Part shown: piece after piece, positions 17,111 to 18,912 of the stretch
Layout of the letters: each line of letters opens with the position of its first letter
Numbering within the stretch: position 1 is the stretch's first letter
Assembly (NCBI RefSeq): GCF_002156875.1
Contig: NZ_NCSY01000006.1
Coordinates: 124,001-188,000 of the forward strand
DNA length: 64,000 nt
Direction of reading: 5' to 3'
DNA from: Bacillus sp. EAC
Lineage (GTDB): Bacteria > Bacillota > Bacilli > Bacillales > Bacillaceae_G
Made by a program: the position numbers and the translations under genes
Notes under the pieces: generated by a model
Databases searched by the model: none
The model's input: the letters and a program-made list of their open reading frames with translations, nothing else
Told to the model about the DNA's origin: nothing

Positions 17111-17150
17111 AAAAAAGAGAGGTGAATAATCACCTCTCTCCGTTTTTTTA
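17111..17150 (-). terminator. Terminator of speD
   Basis: GAGAGGTGA / TCACCTCTC hairpin with T6 on the minus strand, overlapping the end of speD by a few bases. Confidence 0.9.
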
Positions 17151-17534
17151 GTTACCGCTTGCTACTTTTACTTTATTAACTTGAATGGGACCCATTCCTC
17201 TTGGTAGCTCAACATTTTCTCGCGTGTCAGCTTCTAAAGCTTCAGCGATAAAGTTTGCAGCTACATTCGGATCAATTCTATCACCACAAGTATAAACATC
17301 AATACTTGCATAACCATGCTCAGGAAAACTGTGAATAGTTAAGTGTGATTCTGAAATGATTACGACACCACTAACGCCATGAGGAGCGAACTTGTGAAAA
17401 GCAACTTCACGAACTTCTGCGCCAGAGCGTAATGCAGCATCAACAAAAGTCTCCTCAATAAATTTCATATCATTTAATTTTTCAGTATTACAACCCCATA
17501 GTTCTGAAATGACGTGACGACCCATAGTATCCAT
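17148..17534 (-). CDS. speD: S-adenosylmethionine decarboxylase proenzyme
   Basis: Makes decarboxylated SAM, the aminopropyl donor for spermidine. 128 aa, the short class 1B type that self-cleaves at Glu62-Ser63 ([10 protein letters not shown]) to form the pyruvoyl cofactor; H68 and C83 are the conserved processing and catalytic residues. Two ATGs exist: the one at 17540 is only two bases from the ribosome site GGGGG; the one at 17534 is eight bases away and gives the usual [15 protein letters not shown] start. The 5' UTR is long and strongly structured (separate entry). No speE is adjacent. Confidence 0.96.
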
Positions 17535-17539
17535 ATTCA

Positions 17540-17662
17540 TTTCCCCCTTAAATAATTTTGCATGACTTCTATTGCGAAAGTATGATCAACTACCACGGGG
17601 GAAAGTTAGTCCAAAGAGGTCCTAACCCTTTAAGTAGTTAGTTATACTTTTAGAAGTTCACG
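17540..17662 (-). promoter_or_regulatory. Structured 5' leader of speD, riboswitch-like candidate
   Basis: Seen directly (plus-strand positions): ACTTCTA 17565-17571 pairs with 17651-17657; AAAGTAT 17577-17583 with 17644-17650; AACTAC 17588-17593 with 17634-17639; GTTAG 17605-17609 with 17622-17626; CC/GG caps the tip. Between helices lie a 5-base bulge and a 4x4 internal loop. GGGGGAAA at 17597-17604 is a perfect 8-base complement of TTTCCCCC at 17540-17547, which on the mRNA is the Shine-Dalgarno GGGGGAAA. The ligand is unknown; SAM, polyamines or related compounds are inference from the gene. I recognise no named family. Confidence 0.6.
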
Positions 17663-17668
17663 AAAGTT

Positions 17669-17697
17669 AGTATACGTTTTTTAAAATTGAATTGCAA
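17669..17697 (-). promoter_or_regulatory. SigA-type promoter of speD
   Basis: TTGCAA (17697-17692), 17-base spacer, TATACT (17674-17669) on the minus strand. It places the start of transcription near 17662, just before the structured leader. Confidence 0.65.
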
Positions 17698-17805
17698 GAT
17701 AAATTCTTATTTTTTTGTAATTTCTTAGTTTAATTGTGAAATTATTATGTAAAAATTACGAATCCGCTTCCATCTGTCATAATTAGTATTCCTTTCGAGA
17801 CAAGC
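17698..17805. other. Gene-free spacer upstream of the speD promoter
   Basis: AT-rich; nothing recognised. It completes the non-coding gap between speD and the gapB terminator. Confidence 0.5.
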
Positions 17806-17807
17806 AG

Positions 17808-17857
17808 AAAAAGACTAGCTGATATTGTATTTACAATATCTTCTAGCCTTTTGTATT
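17808..17857 (-). terminator. Terminator of gapB
   Basis: Arms GGCTAG.AGATATTGT / ACAATATC.CTAGTC followed by T5 on the minus strand. Confidence 0.8.
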
Positions 17858-17886
17858 CGCTTACAATATAATTTGTGTTGCTCTAA

Positions 17887-18912
17887 TTAATTTTGTACAG
17901 TCTCAAGCTTACTAATTTTAGTTGCAACAATTGAAACTAAATCTACAACTCTTCTTGAATAACCCCATTCATTATCGTACCATGCTAATACTTTTACTTT
18001 TCTACCGTCAATTACCATTGTAGAAAGTGCATCAATGATCGCTGAATGTGTATTGCTATTAAAGTCAATTGATACTAATGGTTCGTTACAATATTCAATA
18101 ATACCATGCATTGAACCTTTTGAAGCCGTTTCGAAAACTTCATTAATTTCTTCAACTGTAACATCTCTTTTTAAGTCAACTACTAAGTCAACTAATGATA
18201 CATTTGGAGTAGGTACACGTAAAGCCATTCCATGTAATTTACCATTTAAATGTGGAAGGACTTTTGAAAGTGCTTTTGCTGCTCCTGTAGTAGTTGGAAT
18301 AATTGATTGACTACAAGCACGAGCTCGGCGTAAATCTTTATGTGGATTATCTATATTTTTTTGATCATTTGTAAATGAATGAACTGTTGTCATTAGACCA
18401 TTTACAATTCCAAATTGTTCGTCTAATACTTTTACAACAGGTGCTAAACAATTTGTAGTGCATGATGCATTTGAAATAATATGATGTTTATCTAAATCTA
18501 ACTCATGATCATTTACACCAATAACAACTGTAATGTCCTCATTTTTACCTGGTGCAGTAATTATTACTTTTTGAGCCCCAGCACTAATATGCATTTTTGC
18601 TTTTTCTGCATCGTTAAATTTTCCAGTTGCTTCAATTACGATATCAACATTTAACTCTTTCCATGGAAGTAACTCAGGATTACGTTCACTGATTAGCTCA
18701 ATACGCTTTCCATCAACGATTAAATGATCTGCATTTGCTACAACCTCACCGTCAAATTTCCCATGAACAGTGTCATATTTAATTAAGTGCGCTAAAGTCT
18801 CAGAAGGGTAGCTTGCATTAATTGCAACGATATTATAATCGTGATTTTTAATTGCCTGACGGAAAACCATGCGCCCAATTCGTCCAAATCCATTTATTGC
18901 TACATTTACCAT
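17887..18912 (-). CDS. gapB: Glyceraldehyde-3-phosphate dehydrogenase, gluconeogenic (GapB type)
   Basis: Reversible oxidation of GAP to 1,3-bisphosphoglycerate; GapB is the NADP-preferring isoform used in gluconeogenesis. 341 aa. Rossmann start VAINGFGRIGRMVFRQA; INASYPS after the second strand (31-37) lacks the acidic residue typical of NAD-specific GapA. The catalytic Cys is C151 in SNASCTTNCLAPV. The position near speD and coaE matches the B. subtilis gapB locus. Control by CcpN is supported by two sites at the promoter. Confidence 0.95.
   Translation of the reverse strand: MVNVAINGFGRIGRMVFRQAIKNHDYNIVAINASYPSETLAHLIKYDTVHGKFDGEVVANADHLIVDGKRIELISERNPELLPWKELNVDIVIEATGKFNDAEKAKMHISAGAQKVIITAPGKNEDITVVIGVNDHELDLDKHHIISNASCTTNCLAPVVKVLDEQFGIVNGLMTTVHSFTNDQKNIDNPHKDLRRARACSQSIIPTTTGAAKALSKVLPHLNGKLHGMALRVPTPNVSLVDLVVDLKRDVTVEEINEVFETASKGSMHGIIEYCNEPLVSIDFNSNTHSAIIDALSTMVIDGRKVKVLAWYDNEWGYSRRVVDLVSIVATKISKLETVQN

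Follow-up and report, generated by a model that had tools for sequence, protein, structure and literature searches.

The speD leader in the window

The question raised by this locus is whether the transcribed region upstream of speD is a regulatory RNA and, if so, of what kind. In the window, the 64,000 nt stretch of Bacillus sp. EAC DNA analysed here, speD (17148..17540, minus strand, as are all features of the locus) is an ORF encoding a 130 amino acid SAM (adenosylmethionine) decarboxylase (TIGR03330, 139.9 bits, cut-off 75.65), and the closest named relatives by SpeD are Gottfriedia, with 96-97% identity. A first-pass annotation of the DNA had placed a promoter upstream of the gene, and a sigma-A-like sequence, TTGCAA-N17-TATACT, is indeed present there at 17669..17697. 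Alone it is no better than chance, with 2 promoter sites found versus a shuffle mean of 1.8, and it counts as evidence because a matching pattern recurs at 78 of 80 related speD loci. With the start site inferred from this promoter, a structured leader RNA occupies 17541..17665, and R1, a covariance model of 38 leaders, matches 17543-17665 with 118.2 bits (E 1.6e-18), the second-best match in the window scoring 15.6 bits.

The same annotation had read the leader as an undescribed translational riboswitch, with four nested helices and an internal strand complementary to the Shine-Dalgarno (SD) region, and every base pair of the helices and of the 8-base complement was confirmed. Named from the base of the hairpin, P1 joins 17651..17657 to 17565..17571, lower P2 (P2b) joins 17644..17650 to 17577..17583 and upper P2 (P2a) joins 17634..17639 to 17588..17593. 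For P3, only the inner five bases of each strand (17605-17609/17622-17626) had been recognized; the helix is longer, formed by GGGUUAG at 17622..17628 and CUAACUU at 17603..17609, and 99.8% of its cells (helix 2) are paired in 55 leaders. The anti-SD strand, UUUCCCCC (17597..17604), is complementary to the SD region, GGGGGAAA (17540..17547), the last A of which is the A of the start codon. P3 and the anti-SD strand fall within a near-invariant 37-nt core, AAAGGGUUAG-N12-CUAACUUNCCCCCGU, at 17595..17631. As a single sequence the window leader folds in an only mildly unusual way (z -1.17), with 29 of 200 shuffles folding equally well. The case for a speD leader RNA is a comparative one, built from sequence: P2 covariation, the near-invariant core, P1 complementarity and the association with SpeD.

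Conservation and covariation

Conservation was evaluated in 80 speD loci from named genomes, mostly Bacillaceae and relatives; as these are the best SpeD matches listed, the set is biased to relatives, a bias from which the genome samples described below are free. A pattern scan located the core in all 80 loci, with a G-rich SD behind it. Mean pairwise identity of the core is 96.4%, versus 39.0% at speD fourfold sites and 79.4% for the SpeD protein (79 of the 80 loci, L311 having been added by hand). The most conserved unit is the core of upper P2, P3 and anti-SD strand, and not the nested hairpin as a whole. In L170 (genome G279), some dozens of bases are inserted in the P3 terminal loop with the rest of the core intact, so this end of P3 looks peripheral.

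Two alignments were made. For A1, 40 dereplicated leaders were reduced to 38 by omitting L067 and L071, in which no -10 element was recognised. A2 holds 55 diverse leaders out of 162 pattern matches, passed through an 80% identity filter and aligned without structure; it leaves out L170, with its long loop insert, and leaders outside the pattern, among them L012, L054, L058, L065, L090, L108 and L176. For P2a and P3 together, 94.8% of the cells in A2 are paired, compared with 17.8-55.0% in slid controls, and there are 49 double-change cells versus 15.3 in shuffles. This covariation is mainly in P2a, where 5 of 7 pairs have double changes. P3 is nearly fixed, its changes being U-A to G-C in one leader, G-U to G-C in two and A-U to G-U in three, and CCCCC of the anti-SD strand is invariant in all 55 leaders; being nearly fixed in sequence, P3 and the Bacillaceae-type anti-SD give little covariation. 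The hairpin cap has a tandem G-A/A-G in 53 of the 55 leaders and a closing C-G pair in 54, around a variable loop. Counting against P3, L164 has CGAAC in place of CUAAC, and in L012, a near relative outside the A2 pattern, U replaces A in P3 and one pair is broken.

P2 was also evaluated in A4, for which 81 hand-chosen loci gave 79 matches aligned to a second covariance model, R2; here 11 of 13 pairs have double changes, with 42 double-change cells versus 5.4 in shuffles, in an alignment fitted to the structure under test. P1 is formed by pairing of the 5′-end with a 3′ GAAnnnCAY motif. In the 87 leaders that have a 5′ TCGTRAAC motif, the P1 duplex energy is -8.1 kcal/mol versus -4.8 kcal/mol with shuffled 3′ segments, 76 of the 87 doing better than their own shuffled mean and 62 doing so by more than 1 s.d. 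With 3′ segments swapped from other leaders the value is -7.35, almost as good because the motif is shared. Two observations could have counted against the riboswitch reading, namely helices that do not covary across related speD leaders and an anti-SD/SD complementarity that is lost in close relatives. P2 does covary, and CCCCC/GGGGG is kept. The leader has the conserved 5′ structure with covariation expected of a translational riboswitch.

A reading frame also crosses the core, and its product might be what is conserved: a leader peptide ending ...TNFPPW-stop that stalls ribosomes in response to polyamines. In 133 of 166 distinct leaders this frame runs open across the core, with its stop 13 codons beyond AAA. 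An ATG, GTG or TTG is present upstream in that frame in only 47 of the 166, at differing distances, and the upstream opening is three codons or fewer in 77. In the window leader itself the frame lacks a start and is closed by a UAA just upstream, and variable sites occur at all codon positions. No conserved short ORF with a start codon was found in these leaders, which refutes a leader-peptide attenuator as a general mechanism and makes such a peptide extremely improbable here.

Distribution of the leader and its link to SpeD

R1 matches are present in 203 of 249 genomes of the order (46 are without) and in 188 of 398 genomes of the class. In a phylum-wide sample, screened through filters that lose weak matches, 8 of 398 genomes have a match, and all 8 are within the class. 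R2, built from diverged leaders, matches in 233 of the 398 class genomes, the window genome among them (E 3.2e-5). Jointly, R1 and R2 find the leader in 263 of the 398 sampled Bacilli genomes. SpeD-family genes (PF02675) are present in 292 of these; the two co-occur in 262 genomes, SpeD stands without the leader in 30 and the leader without SpeD in 1, the match in this last genome being at bases 17-64 of a contig and pointing off its end. With R1 alone the association table with SpeD is 187/1/105/105, giving a p of 2.6e-35 that is overstated because the genomes are related. At the level of loci, 219 distinct leaders fit two patterns, 218 of them with enough flanking sequence, and in all 218 the N-terminus of SpeD comes next.

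Among genomes looked at closely, G270, G308 and G368 each have two speD genes, with a leader of its own before each. G359 has two speD genes of different subfamilies (L188 and L206), and in the upstream stretch examined the leader is present only at L206. The 30 SpeD-bearing class genomes without a leader match, out of 292, include G138, G164, G273 and G335, and some leader-less SpeD belong to a weaker-scoring, longer type resembling that of E. coli (L202, L207-L209).

A second conserved module in diverged leaders

SpeD loci that R1 missed revealed a diverged form of the leader, designated type-2, with the arrangement UAGGAACCAGGAUUCAC - apical part - GUGAAUGACGUAGGUCCUAGCG ... GCUAGGAAGGGGG followed by the start codon. 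The type-2 leaders tabulated are 82 distinct sequences of 102 pattern matches, with misfits such as L193 outside the table. What is strongly conserved in these is the lower P2 helix together with its internal loop. The fate of the P3 core differs by family: some retain it, others have an altered form, and in more of them a shorter hairpin stands in its place. The window leader and those of other Bacillaceae show no sequence conservation of the lower loop. There are also intermediate leaders with both modules, for example L165, L167, L168 and L171. Judged from these sequences the speD RNA has, unexpectedly, two conserved modules of which different lineages keep different ones, a refinement of the first scheme in that relatives belonging to other families have a conserved internal loop in lower P2. 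We suggest, tentatively and with more doubt than belief, that the leaders make up a widespread and old class of polyamine-pathway riboswitches in Bacilli. Its upper module would be the P3/anti-SD core and its lower module the P2 internal loop (AGGA/UGACGUA), each lost, replaced or relaxed by lineage, as though a single anti-SD were served by a pair of sensors or by the two halves of one pocket.

The two strands of the putative switch can be followed across the 82 type-2 leaders. An apical CTCCTC is accompanied by a GGAG-type SD in 17 of 17 cases, CCCCC occurs with an AAGGGGG SD in 52 of 52 and CCCTCG with AAGGGGG in 12 of 12; one leader has CCCC. In energy the covariation is one-way: with SDs from their own class CTCCTC strands reach -13.8 kcal/mol, versus -9.5 kcal/mol with those of the CCCCC class, whereas CCCCC strands bind their own SDs at -13.1 kcal/mol and those of the GGAG class better, at -14.5 kcal/mol. 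The independent events of change are probably few. Additional single leaders have CUCUCCU/AGGAGAG and, in L311, UCUCCUC/GAGGAGA, each with 7 Watson-Crick pairs, and in L199 anti-SD and SD form no ungapped helix of 5 pairs. Since both strands are fixed in the Bacillaceae type, the pairing there rests on invariance. In the host genome AAGGGGG is found at 34 sites (reversed control 11) and AAGGAGG at 101 (reversed control 34); AAGGGGG is a fairly common SD in this host and the SD sequence by itself is, therefore, weak evidence.

In some type-2 leaders, such as L204 and L190, inspection by eye suggests an alternative partner for UCCUAGC of lower P2, namely GCUAGGA immediately ahead of the SD. In these leaders a hairpin next to the SD could thus apparently form only at the expense of lower P2, a possible second switch.

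Predicted folds and a proposed mechanism

The best predicted fold of the window RNA, at -31.1 kcal/mol, has the anti-SD on the SD, the C-G pairs of this helix having a predicted pairing probability of ~0.78. Folds with the SD free and with P1, P2 and P3 formed are predicted at -29.9 to -30.3 kcal/mol, and in the lowest of these the CCC of the anti-SD is taken up by GGG of the core, a built-in competitor. The window RNA is, therefore, predicted to be bistable, with two near-isoenergetic folds. As the anti-SD is in the loop between P3 and P2 and the SD is outside P2, SD pairing while P2 stands would make a pseudoknot, a topology that the folding programs used leave unscored. A transcription-terminating riboswitch would have an intrinsic terminator in the leader, but there are no terminator-like sites within 17400-17900, which makes translational control the simpler reading.

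In the mechanism we propose, P1, P2 and P3 would stack into one hairpin, and the C-rich anti-SD would block ribosome binding by pairing with the SD, whether as part of a pseudoknot on P2 or in a mutually exclusive fold. A signal linked to polyamine synthesis would shift the balance between the SD-free and SD-covered states, presumably as a ligand or protein stabilizes one of them, and would presumably turn speD off. That a conserved translational regulatory RNA precedes speD is well supported. It is likely, in our view, that this RNA acts in cis to set SAM decarboxylase translation through the anti-SD/SD switch.

Two near-equal folds, with the SD covered in the better one, would also be consistent with a static structure that damps translation or sets its timing without a specific signal, as a constitutive brake or a thermosensor. 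Cover of that kind needs neither a 37-nt core at 96% identity nor the conserved internal loop of the relatives, and we consider it distinctly unlikely. A protein, SpeD itself or another regulator, might bind the leader and hold the SD shut in the manner of ribosomal-protein leaders. The near-invariant hairpin with its tandem G-A/A-G cap would suit a protein site, and a 79-nt Hfq-associated RNA from speD-gapB of B. subtilis, listed as 'Unknown or speD leader region' (PMC3574147), also lends weight to a protein partner. By name and place this peak is probably a copy of the window-type leader; in the accessible part of that report it is given no structure, conservation or function. However, invariance extends to the P3/P2 loop and to the anti-SD strand, which resembles ligand-gated switches, and the P3 hairpin is replaced in many relatives in which the speD control elements are still there. 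Control by a protein is, on balance, unlikely, if less so than a fixed structure.

The riboswitch reading is the one we favour, with reasonable but incomplete confidence. SpeD makes the aminopropyl donor, and end-product repression by spermidine is for this reason the first choice; spermidine as the putative ligand falls somewhat short of an even chance. Taken together, dcSAM, SAM, MTA and other compounds are less probable candidates, and plain SAM is made somewhat less likely by the tight speD association, as a leader responding to SAM should turn up before other genes too. An unusual specificity of the decarboxylase, considered as a hint to the ligand, was rejected, as TIGR03330 was matched by all four SpeD proteins checked from loci with the leader.

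Relation to known regulatory RNAs

At gathering cut-offs, Rfam 15 has no family at the leader, either in the window or at 20 further loci that include distant leaders, nor at L184-L187 and L202, SpeD-family loci missed by the models. The SAM-I riboswitch (RF00162) has no leader match at gathering cut-offs and none to E 10 on 17300-17900. What the first-pass reading had anticipated is borne out to this extent: tied to speD is a structured leader that Rfam 15 lacks and that is built like a translational switch. SAM-II and preQ1-II are pseudoknot riboswitches that cover the SD, and the speD leader would work alike if a ligand stabilizes the loop strand on the SD, but no Rfam family matches it, by sequence or by covariance model.

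The spermidine riboswitch, as described in the accessible part of PMC10853860, is a SAM-I variant located before polyamine genes of Gram-positives, including speD, for which end-product control was proposed. It shares the placement before speD in Gram-positive bacteria with the window leader. The 13 examples documented there have the four-stem SAM-I architecture, with transcription termination shown, whereas the window leader consists of one stacked hairpin plus an anti-SD, with no RF00162 match and no terminator. The same source notes that convincing polyamine riboswitches were long missing and that more classes are expected (PMC10853860).

Searches of open-licence PubMed Central, a body of work that covers few subscription papers, turned up no description of the speD leader RNA. 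The leader is best read as a family of switches, apparently undescribed, that act in cis on translation of SAM decarboxylase and are probably riboswitches. Its presence in 262 of 292 sampled SpeD-bearing Bacilli genomes could explain how spermidine synthesis is set in these organisms. Were the signal a protein or another metabolite, the leader would nonetheless count as a conserved regulatory RNA that Rfam 15 lacks. It also occurs in the B. subtilis group (L101, L103, L109), so testing in a model organism is possible.

Known leader RNAs were also encountered. At L189:2940-3044 (plus strand), a SAM-I riboswitch (RF00162, 92.3 bits) is ~1 kb from the speD leader of that genome, on the opposite strand. 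The window itself has an ordinary T-box leader (RF00230, 2784-3033, minus strand, 114.8 bits) and an equally ordinary ribosomal protein L20 leader (RF00558, 12715-12840, minus strand, 81.2 bits).
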